Shown here: in pieces, positions 26,457 to 31,990 of the stretch
Layout: each line of letters opens with the position of its first letter
Position numbering within the stretch: position 1 is the first letter of the stretch
Assembly: GCF_014250675.1 (NCBI RefSeq)
Contig: NZ_JACHTG010000004.1
Span: 1,117,501 to 1,181,500, forward strand
Length of the DNA stretch: 64,000 nucleotides
Direction: 5' to 3'
Source: Cetobacterium sp. 8H
GTDB lineage: Bacteria > Fusobacteriota > Fusobacteriia > Fusobacteriales > Fusobacteriaceae
The notes under the pieces: generated by a model
What the model saw: only the letters and a program-made list of their open reading frames with translations
Database searches by the model: none
Told to the model about the DNA's origin: nothing
Program-made: the position numbers and the translations under genes

Positions 26457-27392
26457 TTATTTTTTTAGAAAAATTTCAAGTGTTGATAAATCGTCTTTTT
26501 GATAGTGTATTCTAATGGTCATATTTTTTTCTTCATACAAAAAAGTATCGTTATTTTTTAAATTATATATTTTAATTAAAAGTTTTGAATTGAAATAGTA
26601 ACCATAATTATAAGATTCTTCATCTTTAAATTTTTTAAAAATATTCAAGATTTCAGTATGAAGCTCAAAAAGATTTTTAAAAAGTTTTGTTGAACGATAA
26701 ACAGGTTCACTCTCTTTTGGGGAAGAAATTTTTAAATTTATTTTTTTAAAAGTAAGGCCAAGTATTTTTGAATTTTTGTTAACACCATTTTTTACTTTGT
26801 CATAAGTTAAATTTAAATTAGCAATAGTTTCTAAATCTTTTAATATTGGCTTAAGAAGATTTTTTTCAATATCAAAGAAACGATCGTAACTATTTTCTAT
26901 TTCAAAAATTGAACGTAAAGTTTCTATCTCAATGTAAAGAGATTCATTTTTTATAGTTTTTAAATGTTGGAATAATCTATAAGAGTATTTTTCTTTAAAT
27001 TTTAAAATTTTATTAAGGTTTAAAATTTCTAAATCATTTTTTGTATGAAAAGAACAATAAATTTCAGGAGAGAAATTTATACTAATAGTTTCATTAAACA
27101 TAAAAAAAGAAGAGATAGGTTTTAGTTTGTAATAAAAATTTAGACTTTTAGAAGTGATAATAATCTCTTTATGTGATAATCTTGTTAAGGCGTTTTGTAA
27201 TTCTTCAGAACTCGATTCTTTTTTTAAATCAAAAATTTTACATAAAAAATCTTTAGTCGTTATTAATTTTGGGAGTTTTAAATCTACAATATTAAAAAAA
27301 TCACGCTCTTTTTTATTTAATTTTTTAGAAAATTCTATATATATAGAGTTGTCTGTAGTTGTAAATTTCTTAAAAATAGAAAAATCATTCAT
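26457..27392 (-). CDS. Rep_3 family plasmid-type replication initiator
   Basis: A 311-residue protein matching the Rep_3/RepB initiator family (PF01051) of theta-replicating plasmids. The strongest signature is the second winged helix: YSYRLFQHLKTIKN, then IEIETLRSIFEIENSYDRFFDIEKNLLKPILKDL, then the GLTFKKI strand (near residues 160-250). The N-terminal half (TRLSHKEIIITS) suits the first winged helix. It sits on a housekeeping chromosome stretch between cysK and a PTS operon, with no partition or mobilisation gene. It may be a remnant of plasmid integration or a domesticated DNA-binding regulator; a 9-bp inverted repeat lies in its upstream region. Confidence 0.7.
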   Translation of the reverse strand: MNDFSIFKKFTTTDNSIYIEFSKKLNKKERDFFNIVDLKLPKLITTKDFLCKIFDLKKESSSEELQNALTRLSHKEIIITSKSLNFYYKLKPISSFFMFNETISINFSPEIYCSFHTKNDLEILNLNKILKFKEKYSYRLFQHLKTIKNESLYIEIETLRSIFEIENSYDRFFDIEKNLLKPILKDLETIANLNLTYDKVKNGVNKNSKILGLTFKKINLKISSPKESEPVYRSTKLFKNLFELHTEILNIFKKFKDEESYNYGYYFNSKLLIKIYNLKNNDTFLYEEKNMTIRIHYQKDDLSTLEIFLKK

Positions 27393-27442: not shown

Positions 27443-27471
27443 GACGATATATAATAAGTGGTTATATCGTC
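27443..27471. repeat. Inverted repeat upstream of the Rep_3 gene
   Basis: GACGATATA (27443-27451) and TATATCGTC (27463-27471) form perfect 9-bp arms around an 11-base gap. It lies about 50 bases upstream of the Rep_3 start, in the divergent region shared with the PTS operon. Rep_3 initiators often bind an inverted repeat in their own promoter to repress themselves; that role here is inference. No tandem iterons are evident nearby. Confidence 0.6.
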
Positions 27472-27562
27472 GTTATACATTCTACATTATAAAAGCTTTA
27501 TTTTCAACTTAAACATTTGCATTTAGTATGTTAATAACGAAAAAAGGTGGTTTTTTATATAT

Positions 27563-27591
27563 TTGTATAAAAAAACAAAATGTAATACTAT
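27563..27591 (+). promoter_or_regulatory. Promoter of the PTS/glycosylasparaginase operon
   Basis: TTGTAT (27563-27568), 17-base spacer, TACTAT (27586-27591), with the first gene starting at 27635. No clear operator or cre site overlaps it. Confidence 0.65.
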
Positions 27592-27634
27592 TATTCTAGA
27601 AGTCAAAAATAAAAAGTAAAAAAGGGGAAAATAA

Positions 27635-27949
27635 GTGGATATTGAAGCTATTGCAATGGGAATTGTTGGAAATGCAGGAGAAAGTAGAAGTTTATCATAT
27701 GAAGCACTTAAAGAAGCTAAAAAAGGAAACTTTGATAAAGCAGAAGAGTTATTAGCAGAAGCTAAAAATAAGATGTATAAAGCTCATAGTATTCAGACAG
27801 AATTGATATGTAGTGAAGCGGATGGAGAAAAAATAGAGGTGAATTTATTACTTGTTCATGCACAAGATCATTTGATGAATTCAATTTTAGCAAAAGAGCT
27901 TATAGAAGAATTAGTATACCTACATAAAGAGATAAAAGAGGTGAAATAA
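27635..27949 (+). CDS. PTS EIIA, lactose/cellobiose (Lac) family
   Basis: A 104-residue three-helix PTS phosphocarrier. The phosphorylated histidine is His75 in LLLVHAQDHLMN, and IEAIAMGIVGNAGESRSLSYEAL is the typical first helix. It takes phosphate from HPr and passes it to the EIIB encoded at 30239. It starts with GTG after a GGGGA site and heads the operon; the asparaginase gene begins one base after its stop. Confidence 0.95.
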   Translation: MDIEAIAMGIVGNAGESRSLSYEALKEAKKGNFDKAEELLAEAKNKMYKAHSIQTELICSEADGEKIEVNLLLVHAQDHLMNSILAKELIEELVYLHKEIKEVK

Positions 27950-27950
27950 A

Positions 27951-28901
27951 ATGAAAACTTGGGGAATGATAGCAACTTGGAGAATGGCTATAGAGGGTGT
28001 AACGCTAGGTTCAGAAATGTTAAAAAATGGTGAAAAATGTCAAGATGCTTTAGAAAAAGCAGTTATATTTGTAGAGGACTATCCATTTTATAAATCAGTA
28101 GGTTATGGTGGACTTCCAAATGAAGAGTGCGAAGTAGAATTAGATGCAGCATTCATGGATGGAAAAACACTTTCAATAGGAGCCGTAGCTTCAATAAAAG
28201 ATTTTAAAAATCCAATTTCAATAGCAAGAAAATTAAGTGCAGATAGATATAATATATTTTTAGTTGGGGCAGGAGCAGAATCATATGCCCACAAAAATGG
28301 TTTTGTGAGACAGAATATGTTGACTGAAAGAGCTAGAAAAACTTGGGAGTTAAGAGTAAAAGAGATAAGAGAAAAGAATCTGTCACCTTATGATGGGCAT
28401 GATACTGTATGCATGATTGCAATAGATCAAGAAAAAGATATGGCAGTAGCAACATCGACAAGTGGTCTATTCATGAAGAAAAAAGGAAGAGTAGGGGATT
28501 CGCCAGTTTCTGGATCAGGATTTTATGTTGATAACGAGATTGGAGGAGCAGCAGCAACTGGTCTTGGTGAGGATATAATGAAGGGATGTTTATCATATGA
28601 GGTAGTTCAAAGAATGAAGAAAGGTGAAACACCTCAAAAAGCTGCACAAGGAGCAGTGGATGATTTTAGCAAAGAGCTTATAAAAAGAAGAGGAAAAGCG
28701 GGAGAAATCTCAATAGTAGCTTTAAATAATAGGGGAGAGTGGGGAATAGGAACAAATGTAGAATTTACGTTTTGTGCAGCAACACCTACCGAGCAGCCTA
28801 AAGTATATATAGCAACGCCAGTAAATGGAGAAGTGAAGATAGAAATAGCATCTGAAGAGTATATGAGAGCATATAAAGAAAAAATTCAAAGGGGGATATA
28901 A
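27951..28901 (+). CDS. N4-(beta-N-acetylglucosaminyl)-L-asparaginase family Ntn-hydrolase
   Basis: A 316-residue member of the aspartylglucosaminidase family. These enzymes autocleave to expose a threonine and split the bond between a sugar and the side chain of asparagine, giving aspartate and a glycosylamine. Thr152 in GHDTVCMIAID matches the nucleophile; the STSG and GLGEDIMKG motifs match the substrate pocket. No signal peptide is visible, so the enzyme should be cytoplasmic. It is sandwiched between PTS EIIA and EIIC genes with gaps of 1-2 bases, implying that the PTS imports its substrate. Exact substrate unproven. Confidence 0.9.
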   Translation: MKTWGMIATWRMAIEGVTLGSEMLKNGEKCQDALEKAVIFVEDYPFYKSVGYGGLPNEECEVELDAAFMDGKTLSIGAVASIKDFKNPISIARKLSADRYNIFLVGAGAESYAHKNGFVRQNMLTERARKTWELRVKEIREKNLSPYDGHDTVCMIAIDQEKDMAVATSTSGLFMKKKGRVGDSPVSGSGFYVDNEIGGAAATGLGEDIMKGCLSYEVVQRMKKGETPQKAAQGAVDDFSKELIKRRGKAGEISIVALNNRGEWGIGTNVEFTFCAATPTEQPKVYIATPVNGEVKIEIASEEYMRAYKEKIQRGI

Positions 28902-28903
28902 AA

Positions 28904-30229
28904 ATGAGTAAATTAATTGAAATTCTAGAAGAAAAATTAGTACCAGTAGCATCTTGGATAGGTAGTAACAAGCATATCAATGGAATAAGAAGAGCCTTTA
29001 TTTTAATGATGCCTTTACTTATGATAGGTTCTATCTTTTTAATGATAGCAGCTTTTCCATTACCAGCTTACCAAAAATTTATGTTAGAGACTTTTGGTCC
29101 AAATTGGAAATCAGTATTAGATATACCAGTGGATGCAACATTTTCATTGATTGCTGTATATGTAGCTTTTCTAGTAGCTCAGCAATTAGCTAATCAATAT
29201 AAATTAGATAGTGTTGCTGCAGGCTTATTGTCATTAGCATCTTTTTTAATTCTTACTCCTTTAACAAAGGTAGAGGGTGTGGGATCTGTTTTAACATTTA
29301 ACTGGTTAGGAAGCAAGGGAATGTTTGTTGCAATGGTTATAGGTATATTTACAGTAAGCATCTTCAGATTCTTTGTAAACAGAAATATTTTAATTAAAAT
29401 GCCAGATGGGGTTCCACCAGAAGTTATAAAGTCTTTTGAAGCACTAATTCCAGGAACAGTAATTTTATCATTAGCACTACTTTTAAGAATAACTATGATG
29501 AATACAGAATATGGAACGATTCATGATTTTATATATAAAATGTTAGCACTTCCATTAAGAGCTTTAGGAACATCATTTATAGGGTCTTTAATGACTGTAT
29601 TTGCAATCTCTATTCTATGGTCAGTTGGAATAAATAGTGGTTCAATGGTAAACGGATTTGTAAGACCATTTTGGTTAGAAAATCAAATTGACAATATAAA
29701 TGCTTTAAAAGAGGGATTGCCATTACCACACATCATAACAGAGCAATTTTTCGATATGATCTGGATGGGTGGAGCAGGAGCAACATTGTCATTATTGCTA
29801 GCTGTAGGAATTTTTGCAAAAAGTAGACATATAAAAAGTGTAGGAGCAATTGGTGCAGTTCCAGGAATATTCAATATAAATGAGCCAATTTTATTTGGAA
29901 TGCCAATAATATTAAACCCAATAATGTTAATACCTTTCAACGTAGTGCCTTTAGTTATGGTAACAACTCAATATTTAGCAATGTCAATTGGACTGGTTTC
30001 AAAGCCGTTAGGAGTAGCTTTTCCATGGCCAACACCAGCAGTTATAAGTGGTTTTTTAACAGTTGGAGATTTATCAGGAGCAATGATTCAAATTGTTAAT
30101 CTAATTATAGGGGCTATGATATACTTGCCTTTCTTAAGAATAATAGATAAAGCGAGTAAGTATGAAGAGGATAAAGTAGCTGAATTTGAAAAAGAAGAAG
30201 AAGCAAATAAAGAATTAAAAACTATATAG
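28904..30229 (+). CDS. PTS EIIC, lactose/cellobiose family permease
   Basis: A 441-residue membrane permease of the CelB type, with roughly ten hydrophobic spans. Family blocks include an N-terminal LEEKLVPVASWIGSNKHI, GVPPEVIKSFEALIPG, and GIFNINEPILFGMPIILNP with the sugar-binding Glu. The last 35 residues are charged and acidic. Lac-family EIIC proteins usually import beta-linked disaccharides such as cellobiose or chitobiose. Here the neighbouring asparaginase suggests a GlcNAc-asparagine-like ligand, which is inference. Confidence 0.93.
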   Translation: MSKLIEILEEKLVPVASWIGSNKHINGIRRAFILMMPLLMIGSIFLMIAAFPLPAYQKFMLETFGPNWKSVLDIPVDATFSLIAVYVAFLVAQQLANQYKLDSVAAGLLSLASFLILTPLTKVEGVGSVLTFNWLGSKGMFVAMVIGIFTVSIFRFFVNRNILIKMPDGVPPEVIKSFEALIPGTVILSLALLLRITMMNTEYGTIHDFIYKMLALPLRALGTSFIGSLMTVFAISILWSVGINSGSMVNGFVRPFWLENQIDNINALKEGLPLPHIITEQFFDMIWMGGAGATLSLLLAVGIFAKSRHIKSVGAIGAVPGIFNINEPILFGMPIILNPIMLIPFNVVPLVMVTTQYLAMSIGLVSKPLGVAFPWPTPAVISGFLTVGDLSGAMIQIVNLIIGAMIYLPFLRIIDKASKYEEDKVAEFEKEEEANKELKTI

Positions 30230-30238
30230 GAGGAAAAA

Positions 30239-30544
30239 ATGAAAAAAATATTATTGTTATGTTCGGCAGGAATGTCAACGAGTATTATAGTAAAAAAAAT
30301 GCTGGAAGCAGCAGATAAAAAAGGTTTAGAAGTAGAAATAAAAGCTATGGGGTTAGAGATGTTCCAAGAGAATTTAGGAAATTACGATATATTTTTATTA
30401 GGACCACAGGTAAAGTTCAAAAGGGATGAACTTAATAAGATAGCTCAAGAAAAAGGGAAAAGAGTAGAAGTAATAAATCCAATGGATTATGGAATGATGA
30501 AAGGGGACAAAATTTTAGAATTTGCTTTAAATTTAATAGATTAA
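30239..30544 (+). CDS. PTS EIIB, lactose/cellobiose family
   Basis: A 101-residue cytoplasmic phosphocarrier with the phosphorylated Cys8 in LLLCSAGMSTS and the LLGPQVKF strand. It relays phosphate from EIIA (27635) to the incoming sugar on EIIC. A GGAGG site lies 6 bases before the ATG. With EIIA and EIIC the permease set is complete. Confidence 0.95.
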   Translation: MKKILLLCSAGMSTSIIVKKMLEAADKKGLEVEIKAMGLEMFQENLGNYDIFLLGPQVKFKRDELNKIAQEKGKRVEVINPMDYGMMKGDKILEFALNLID

Positions 30545-30563
30545 TCTTATAAGGAGATGCCAA

Positions 30564-31961
30564 TTGAAAGCAATTATAGAAAGTTTTATTGAAAAAGATT
30601 TTAATAAAACTTTAAGTGATATAAAAAAGATACTGCAGATAAAAACTGTAAAAGATCTGCCAACTAAAGATGCACCTTTTGGAGAGGGACTGAAAATAGG
30701 GTTAGAAGAAGTCTTAGAAATAGCAAGAAAATTAGGCTTTAAAACAACAAATTTAGATAACTATATAGGATATGCTGAAATTGGATCAGGGGATGAGTAT
30801 ATAGCTATATTAGGACATATAGATGTTGTTCCAGCCGGAGATGAATCTAAATGGAGAGTTTCACCATTTAGTGGTGAAATAGTGGGGAATGAGATTATAT
30901 CAAGAGGGGCTTTAGATAATAAAGCCCCAATCATTTCAGCTCTTCATGCAATGTATTGTTTAAAAGAGTTAGAACTGACTGGTGGAAAAAAAATTAGAGT
31001 TATTTTTGGTACGAATGAAGAGAGTGGAGATGAGGATATAAAATATTATTTAAAAAAAGAAAATCCTCCAAAGTATGCATTTACTCCAGACGGACGATTC
31101 CCAGTAGTTTTTTCAGAAAAAGGCATCTATACATTCAGATACAGTGAGAATATTGATTTCAAAAATACAAATATTTTAGAATTATCAGGTGGTGAAAAAT
31201 CCAATGTAATACCTGAAAAATGTAGTTGTAAAATTAGATTATCAAATGAAGAAAACTTAATTAAAGAGATTAATGAGTTAGAATTAACAAGCAAGTACAG
31301 ATATAGTTTTAATTTAGAAGAAGATTGTATTGTTTTGACTTGTTTCGGAGTTTCAGCGCATGCAAGCTCACCACAAAAGGGAGTAAATCCAATAATTGGG
31401 ATGTTCACTTTATTAAATAGAGTGTTAAATGAAAATGATTCTTTGAAAAATTTTTCAAAATTTGTATCTAATATGATTGGTGAATACTATGATGGTTCAG
31501 GATTAGAAATAAATAAGAAGAATTTAGAGACAGGGGACTTAACTTTAAGTGTTGGAATAGCTAAATTAAATAAAAATAATGTTGAAATAAAAATAAATAT
31601 CAGATATCCGCAGGGAGTAACTGAGGAATTTTTAAATAAAACATTAGAAAAAAAAGCTGAAGAGAATGGAATAAGGTTTGTAAGAGACAACCATAATCCA
31701 CCTTTATATTTTGATAGAAATAGCACTCTTGTAAAAGCGTTGCAGAAATCATATTTAGATGTGACGGGTAGAGATGAAAAACCAGTAGCACTAGGGGGAG
31801 GGACATATGCAAAATTGATGCCAAACACAGTTGCATTTGGACCTAATTTTGTGGAGTATAAAGGAAATCCTCATGGAGTAAATGAATCTATAGACATTGA
31901 AATGTTAAGACAGGGAATGGTAATATATGCACTGGGAGTTTTAGAACTTCTGAAAAACTAA
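30564..31961 (+). CDS. M20 family dipeptidase, PepV-like
   Basis: A 465-residue zinc dipeptidase. Metal-binding and catalytic blocks are in order: GHIDVVPAGD (His and catalytic Asp), RGALDNKAP, GTNEESGDED (catalytic Glu pair), and a C-terminal GGGTYAKLMPN with a His in NPHGVNESI. Length agrees with PepV, an enzyme that trims dipeptides with a broad N-terminal residue. The start is TTG after AAGGAG. As last gene of the glycosylasparagine operon it could release the sugar-bearing asparagine from short peptides. Confidence 0.9.
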   Translation: MKAIIESFIEKDFNKTLSDIKKILQIKTVKDLPTKDAPFGEGLKIGLEEVLEIARKLGFKTTNLDNYIGYAEIGSGDEYIAILGHIDVVPAGDESKWRVSPFSGEIVGNEIISRGALDNKAPIISALHAMYCLKELELTGGKKIRVIFGTNEESGDEDIKYYLKKENPPKYAFTPDGRFPVVFSEKGIYTFRYSENIDFKNTNILELSGGEKSNVIPEKCSCKIRLSNEENLIKEINELELTSKYRYSFNLEEDCIVLTCFGVSAHASSPQKGVNPIIGMFTLLNRVLNENDSLKNFSKFVSNMIGEYYDGSGLEINKKNLETGDLTLSVGIAKLNKNNVEIKINIRYPQGVTEEFLNKTLEKKAEENGIRFVRDNHNPPLYFDRNSTLVKALQKSYLDVTGRDEKPVALGGGTYAKLMPNTVAFGPNFVEYKGNPHGVNESIDIEMLRQGMVIYALGVLELLKN

Positions 31962-31990
31962 AAGCCAAGGAAATCCTTGGCTTTTTTTTT
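31960..31990 (+). terminator. Terminator of the PTS operon, shared with hflX
   Basis: AAAAGCCAAGG and CCTTGGCTTTT pair around AAAT, ending in nine or more T. It sits between convergent genes and its last bases touch the hflX stop, so it may serve both. Confidence 0.9.

Follow-up and report, generated by a model that had tools for sequence, protein, structure and literature searches.

A putative GlcNAc-asparagine (GlcNAc-Asn) operon of Cetobacterium sp. 8H is quite probably controlled by the product of a divergent gene, a Rep_3-type protein, through two sites, O1 and O2, in the intergenic region. Control of PTS operons is generally ascribed to regulators of the PRD, GntR, LacI, or DeoR type, and the usual annotation of a Rep_3 protein is "replication initiation protein." Related genes face PTS operons elsewhere in the Fusobacteriota, and their comparison gives good bioinformatic support to the proposal that a new class of PTS regulators has arisen from plasmid initiators.

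A PTS operon with glycosylasparaginase and dipeptidase genes

The window (the whole stretch of 64,000 nucleotides that was analyzed) is part of a 1.75-Mb chromosomal contig in a genome of 2.57 Mb. The operon comprises the following features:

27563 to 27591, plus strand: putative promoter of the PTS-AGA operon, TTGTAT-N17-TACTAT, aligned with the TTGAC..TATAAT promoters of orthologous loci
27635 to 27949, plus strand: PTS Lac-family EIIA, with a GTG start (PF02255, E = 1.5e-35)
27951 to 28901, plus strand: N4-(beta-N-acetylglucosaminyl)-L-asparaginase (glycosylasparaginase, AGA), predicted to be cytoplasmic, nucleophile T152 (PF01112, E = 1.1e-64; active-site columns; PDB 1p4k, E = 9e-58)
28904 to 30229, plus strand: PTS Lac/cellobiose-family EIIC (TIGR00359/TIGR00410, E = 9.8e-131, over the cut-off)
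30239 to 30544, plus strand: PTS Lac-family EIIB (PF02302, E = 1.2e-20)
30564 to 31961, plus strand: PepV/Sapep-type M20 dipeptidase (NF005591, 437.8 bits; cut-off, 435)
31960 to 31985, no strand assigned: bidirectional intrinsic terminator at the operon end, with an 11-bp stem (from the sequence)

As the gaps between the five genes measure only 1 to 19 bp and the terminator at 31960 to 31985 follows the last of them, they are read as one unit, and EIIA-AGA-EIIC-EIIB-PepV is confirmed as a single operon (27635 to 31961). EIIA, EIIB, and EIIC are all of the Lac-family PTS (PF02255, PF02302, PF02378, and TIGR00410). The first-pass annotation had described such a PTS interleaved with a glycosylasparaginase, followed by a PepV-like dipeptidase and lacking a phospho-beta-glycosidase. 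The five plus-strand genes and their family matches bear this out, and no phospho-beta-glycosidase was found within the operon. The start that it gave, 27563, lies ahead of the first gene and falls on the likely −35 box rather than on a codon; the gene set itself was right. No Rfam element was detected between 25000 and 34500.

The gene neighborhood search that had been suggested along with that description recovered the same five genes, in unchanged order, in 13 other Fusobacteriaceae loci with sufficient sequence; in one of these (locus L044 of genome G027), AGA is split into two ORFs. A scan of named genomes yielded 341 AGA relatives, and neighborhoods were taken from the best 80 loci, where the genes near AGA were PepV (65 loci), EIIB (60), EIIC (59), and EIIA (56). 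In most of these best 80 named loci, which belong to other bacteria, AGA adjoins Lac-type PTS genes, PepV genes, or both, and clusters of AGA, PTS, and PepV are widespread throughout the Bacillota. The conserved five-gene order and the company that AGA keeps elsewhere argue that the arrangement is not due to chance.

The divergent gene encodes a Rep_3-type protein

The gene that is divergent from the operon (26457 to 27392) and the intergenic region between them were outside the coordinates covered by the first-pass annotation. They hold the following features:

26457 to 27392, minus strand: Rep_3-type (RepE-like) protein of 311 residues with WH1, WH2, and a C-terminal domain of ~85 residues; proposed regulator (PF21205, E = 1.7e-9; PF01051, E = 1.9e-5)
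27444 to 27470, no strand assigned: O1, inverted repeat ACGATATA-N11-TATATCGT (ACGA-N19-TCGT), from the footprint; proposed autoregulatory operator
27479 to 27507, minus strand: putative promoter of the Rep3-type gene, TTGAAA-N17-TAGAAT (consensus match only, 10/12)
27536 to 27547, plus strand: O2, direct half-site AACGAAAAAAGG, with the presumed operon −35 lying 26 bp downstream; proposed activator site

The family profile of the protein matches RepE in the PDB (3e-8), and a Foldseek comparison of its AlphaFold2 model finds RepE-DNA complexes (E = 2.5e-8); among the matched structures are iteron-bound RepE and the operator-bound RepE dimer (2z9o). The pLDDT of the model was 42 with a single sequence and 65.6 with three sequences, the latter being sufficient for a fold match and insufficient for the C-terminal domain. 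Sequence, profile, and fold agree on two winged-helix domains (WH1 and WH2) homologous to those of RepE, and no PRD, EIIA, or EIIB domain was found in the protein. Judged by homology, the product is of the Rep_3 type, with two winged helices, and belongs to neither the GntR nor the PRD regulators.

A Rep3-type gene is divergent from EIIA in all 12 of the other AGA loci of Fusobacteriaceae whose upstream sequence is long enough. Outside the nearest relative, the proteins from the Fusobacteriaceae loci are only 35 to 44% identical, versus 74 to 90% for AGA; conservation that is low relative to the enzyme is usual for local regulators. When 17 genomes with AGA loci were searched for the Rep3-type family, only two weaker matches were obtained outside F. 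mortiferum. The regulators of the homologous operon in the Bacillota are of the PRD/EIIA type (loci L087, L091, L093, L105, and L122) or, in Enterococcus, of the GntR-UTRA type (L139 and L159). PRD/EIIA regulators of the LicR/MtlR type occupy the same regulator position there but have no sequence relation to the Rep3-type protein.

Two conserved sites in the intergenic region

O1 is conserved and lies between the putative promoter of the Rep3-type gene (27507 to 27479, minus strand) and its start codon. The inverted repeat (ACGA-N18/19-TCGT, counted with spacers of N16 to N19) was present near the Rep gene in 35 of 51 Rep3/PTS intergenic regions, compared with a mean of 0.26 and a maximum of 3 in 200 rounds of dinucleotide shuffling. 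Of 163 control intergenic regions taken from these loci, 0 contained it, and it was absent from all 24 Rep3 genes of plasmids (small contigs). Exact O1 is missing from 16 of the 51 to 52 regions, and 5 regions lack both O1 and O2. Strict O1 sites, among them that of the window, number three in the 2.57-Mb genome, two of them upstream of a Rep3 gene, and 19 in eight other genomes, where 13 are upstream of a Rep3 gene; the genome-wide total is not above that of a reversed-pattern control, and what is distinctive is the location. The third strict site in this genome lies inside a gene; we ascribed it to chance.

A further conserved block, AACGAAAW, emerges from footprint alignments of the orthologous loci and lies upstream of the promoter on the PTS side. 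An ACGA at this site (O2) precedes a PTS-directed TTGAC (−35) in 34 of 52 regions (mononucleotide shuffles, 0.38), at distances of 4 to 45 bp, mostly 27 or 28 and otherwise mainly 26, 18, or 15. No O2 was seen in the opposite orientation, in the 163 control intergenic regions, or at the 24 plasmid Rep3 genes. The O2 of the window is in register and is excluded from the count of 34, its −35 being TTGTAT, a weaker match, and not TTGAC. After the set was thinned to 26 regulators with less than 50% identity, O1 was found with 15, O2 with 17, and at least one of them with 23 (nulls, 0.11 and 0.06). O2 is situated near −60 of the PTS promoter, which is a usual position for an activator. The ACGA half-site that it shares with O1, its fixed distance to the −35, and its restriction to the PTS side fit an activator and a single protein that reads both sites.

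On the F plasmid, inverted repeats situated between the promoter and the repE ORF serve as the binding site of the RepE dimer, and RepE also binds the iterons, with the monomer as the active initiator (PMC13028717). The protein in the window resembles RepE and other Rep_3 initiators in its two winged-helix domains, in the inverted repeat between its own putative promoter and ORF, and in a direct half-site with the same core elsewhere. By analogy, one form of it, the dimer, would bind O1 and limit its own expression, and another form would bind O2 upstream of the operon −35 and bring about activation. An inducing signal and a role for the C-terminal domain are presumed along with the DNA binding itself.

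It is rather unlikely that the protein binds O1 and O2 but represses the operon, or that it controls itself alone while the operon answers to another factor. Autorepression is the role for which RepE is best known (PMC13028717), the symmetric form occurs in O1 only, and activation is deduced solely from where O2 lies; nevertheless, an activator upstream of the −35, and one protein reading both sites, would fit a second site that carries the ACGA half-site, keeps a set distance (mainly 26 to 28 bp) to the −35, stands on the PTS side only, and is found 0 times in the opposite orientation and 0 times in control promoters.

Probable substrate of the operon and comparison with known systems

AGA shares 40% identity with the glycosylasparaginase of Elizabethkingia (PDB 1p4k; E = 9e-58). 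Eight of eight checked positions of that enzyme (Trp11, Asp66, Thr152, Thr170, Arg180, Asp183, Gly204, and Gly206), which we take to be catalytic or aspartate-binding residues, are kept as W10, D65, T152, T170, R180, D183, G204, and G206. The Ntn-hydrolase features, i.e., the HDT nucleophile and the aspartate-binding residues, are present, and the protein sequence supports a true glycosylasparaginase (EC 3.5.1.26). A cytoplasmic location is likewise supported by the N terminus (MKTWGMIATW), which has no signal peptide. AGA is the sole Asparaginase_2 protein in the genome and is 90% identical to its counterpart in an uncultured Cetobacterium and 79% identical to that in Fusobacterium mortiferum. 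R11, R127, and K177, which were considered for phosphate recognition, are basic in nearly all AGA relatives and not in the Elizabethkingia enzyme; in Leptotrichiaceae AGAs that adjoin PTS genes, however, position 11 is occupied by C or T.

The operon probably serves the use of GlcNAc-Asn. This compound, possibly together with short glycopeptide stubs, would be imported via the Lac-family PTS, probably as the 6-phosphate, and cytoplasmic AGA would split it into aspartate and a 1-amino sugar. The latter would decay to GlcNAc(-6-P) and ammonia and proceed via NagA, and any peptide residues may be trimmed by PepV. A single clear copy of nagA is present in the genome, through which GlcNAc-6-P would be taken onward.

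The fructose-asparagine (fra) system also catabolizes a sugar-asparagine, with transporter and enzyme families that differ from the PTS/AGA/PepV set. The operon contains PTS, AGA, and PepV genes only and no fra enzymes, in agreement with the earlier view that it is distinct from fra.

The ega locus of Enterococcus faecalis, as outlined in PMC11160706, consists of the glycosylasparaginase EgaG, EIIB and EIIC of a Lac/Cel PTS, a dipeptidase, and a GntR regulator, and it has been published as required for GlcNAc-Asn use (Combret et al. 2024, Res Microbiol 175:104169; cited in PMC11160706). On that outline, the enzyme, the PTS family, and the kind of dipeptidase are common to both systems, and the window shows the same grouping of AGA beside a Lac/Cel-type PTS and a dipeptidase. 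The differences lie in the gene order, in the inclusion of EIIA in the Cetobacterium operon, and in the regulator: no GntR-family regulator was found at the locus, where the divergent gene is of the Rep_3 type. Because GlcNAc-Asn use has been published for ega, the operon is of a known kind, and the new type of system that the first-pass annotation implied is not supported. Its proposal of GlcNAc-Asn uptake and cleavage probably holds, given the AGA residues, the cytoplasmic AGA, the Lac-family PTS, and nagA, but it missed the regulator.

The alf-2 cluster of L. casei is likewise directed at a core N-glycan stub and combines a cytoplasmic glycosylasparaginase with PepV, although PepV is dispensable there for the use of 6′-fucosyl-GlcNAc-Asn (PMC6960285). 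It differs in having an MFS permease and an alpha-fucosidase in place of a PTS, a sugar kinase, and a GntR regulator; its hallmarks, the permease AlfH and the fucosidase AlfC, are absent from the operon.

A different substrate, such as chitobiosyl-Asn, a fucosylated stub, or another N-glycosyl-asparagine or beta-aspartyl compound, with a correspondingly different PTS specificity, seems unlikely. The EIIC score is barely over the cut-off of the cellobiose family, which is of mixed specificity, and AsnA2 of L. casei also accepts fucosylated GlcNAc-Asn (PMC6960285); yet ega, which has the same pairing of enzyme and PTS, was published for GlcNAc-Asn (as outlined in PMC11160706), Enterococcus AGAs are 60 to 61% identical to that of the window, and the operon has no glycosidase.

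Rep3-type genes across the Fusobacteriota

Rep3_C matches were found in 64 of 98 Fusobacteriota genomes. We took 42 regions around such matches on long contigs; 4 of them held solely genes outside the subfamily of the window protein, and the remainder contained 39 genes belonging to that subfamily. Almost all 39 have a divergent gene directly upstream, mostly across a gap of ~80 to 540 bp, and for 31 of these chromosomal genes (counted outside AGA operons) the divergent neighbor is a PTS component, of the Lac, fructose, mannose/sorbose, glucose, or ascorbate-like class. The other eight face a GH1 gene, DUF7916 genes (two cases, each followed by EIIB-EIIC), a SelA-like gene, a PRD-like gene, amidohydrolase genes (two cases), and a gene for a peptide-binding protein. 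Two further chromosomal copies are present in the Cetobacterium genome, one at a fructose PTS/tryptophanase locus and the other at a Lac PTS/MupG locus. No relatives of the family were found in a scan of viral contigs.

In a phylogenetic tree, all 52 chromosomal Rep3-type genes fall on one side of a single branch that separates them from the 24 Rep3 genes of plasmids, with moderate support (SH-aLRT, 84) and long branches; the chromosomal set was gathered with a profile built from the same family, which favors its clustering. Arrays of at least three copies of ~22-bp repeats lie upstream of 22 of the 24 Rep3 genes on small contigs and of 0 of the 52 PTS-linked genes. Compared with RepE and other Rep_3 initiators, the PTS-linked proteins lack iterons, are chromosomal, face PTS operons, have an extra C-terminal region, and form a separate branch. 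The window gene lies on a 1.75-Mb chromosomal contig with conserved synteny and not on an autonomous replicon. That it is a remnant or part of an integrated plasmid, unrelated to the operon, is highly improbable: the Pfam family is that of initiators and genuine plasmid Rep3 genes are plentiful in the phylum (this genome has two, on its 29-kb contig C1), but the iteron counts led us to reject the gene as a mark of plasmid integration, and the separate branch, the conserved divergent synteny with PTS operons, and operators common to regulators less than 50% identical all speak against it.

Domesticated plasmid initiators acting as local regulators of PTS operons are the best reading of these comparisons. 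The Rep_3-type protein of the window would be a relative of RepE-like initiators that has lost its replication role and controls the operon, and related proteins would act likewise at many other Fusobacteriota PTS operons. The open-access literature searched yielded no paper that describes Rep_3 proteins in the role of PTS regulators. We consider it likely that the Fusobacteriota possess a phylum-wide, previously undescribed class of regulators that came from plasmid initiators, each controlling the adjacent PTS operon through a pair of sites in the style of O1 and O2 and replacing PRD or GntR regulators.

The operon would carry the published scavenging of GlcNAc-Asn over to the Fusobacteriota. 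If the chromosomal copies are regulators, dozens of genes are misannotated in this gut- and disease-associated phylum, and the control of sugar uptake would be predictable from a short DNA motif. A plasmid replication switch, between monomer and dimer and between inverted and direct repeats, would then have been reused for metabolism.

Variants of the AGA operon

Outside Cetobacterium sp. 8H, the glycosylasparaginase (AGA) operon was found in several forms. In genome G027, AGA is made up of two overlapping ORFs (L044, 5224-6188), likely the result of a frameshift, and the remaining operon is intact. A metagenome bin labelled Spirochaetes (L086) carries the fusobacterial order EIIA-AGA-EIIC-EIIB-PepV with an AGA of 73% identity, and no Rep3-type gene was found at this locus. 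The C. difficile AGA operon contains a 172-aa gene resembling GRDB, a component B of glycine/sarcosine/betaine reductase (L105, 6403-6921). For the GlcNAc-Asn utilization locus (ega) of E. faecalis, a pseudogene of a putative oxidoreductase has been mentioned, with citation of a glycine reductase paper (PMC11160706). The arrangement differs in Leptotrichiaceae (L172 and L177), where it reads DUF7916-EIIB-EIIC ... AGA-M20; L172 has two Rep3-type genes.

Rep3-type genes beside other PTS operons

Two paralogues of the Rep3-type gene, the proposed local regulator, adjoin other PTS genes on contig C4 of the Cetobacterium sp. 8H genome:

L052, 5836-11729 (C4:611500-627500): Rep3-type paralogue with MupG/Lac PTS genes
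L051, 5163-11213 (C4:476000-492000): Rep3-type paralogue with fructose-type PTS

At L052, the paralogue is flanked by MupG and Lac EIIA on one side and by Lac EIIB, a 351-aa protein and EIIC on the other. The 351-aa protein appears porin-like by eye and had no Pfam match. Both putative operators, the inverted repeat O1 (C4:620162) and the half-site O2 (C4:620256), are present, and L052 is putatively a MurNAc-glycoside uptake locus controlled in the manner proposed for the window's AGA operon (Rep3-type protein, O1 and O2). At L051, the fructose-type PTS lies on one side of the paralogue, and a tryptophanase-like lyase and an SNF-family transporter lie on the other.

In the tree of Rep3-type proteins, those of L172 and L177 fall on a different branch from those of Fusobacteriaceae AGA loci. 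The grouping tends to match the class of the adjacent PTS, whether mannose/sorbose, fructose or Lac (L164, L167, L169-L171 and L069-L072), as though the regulators had travelled with their class of transporter.
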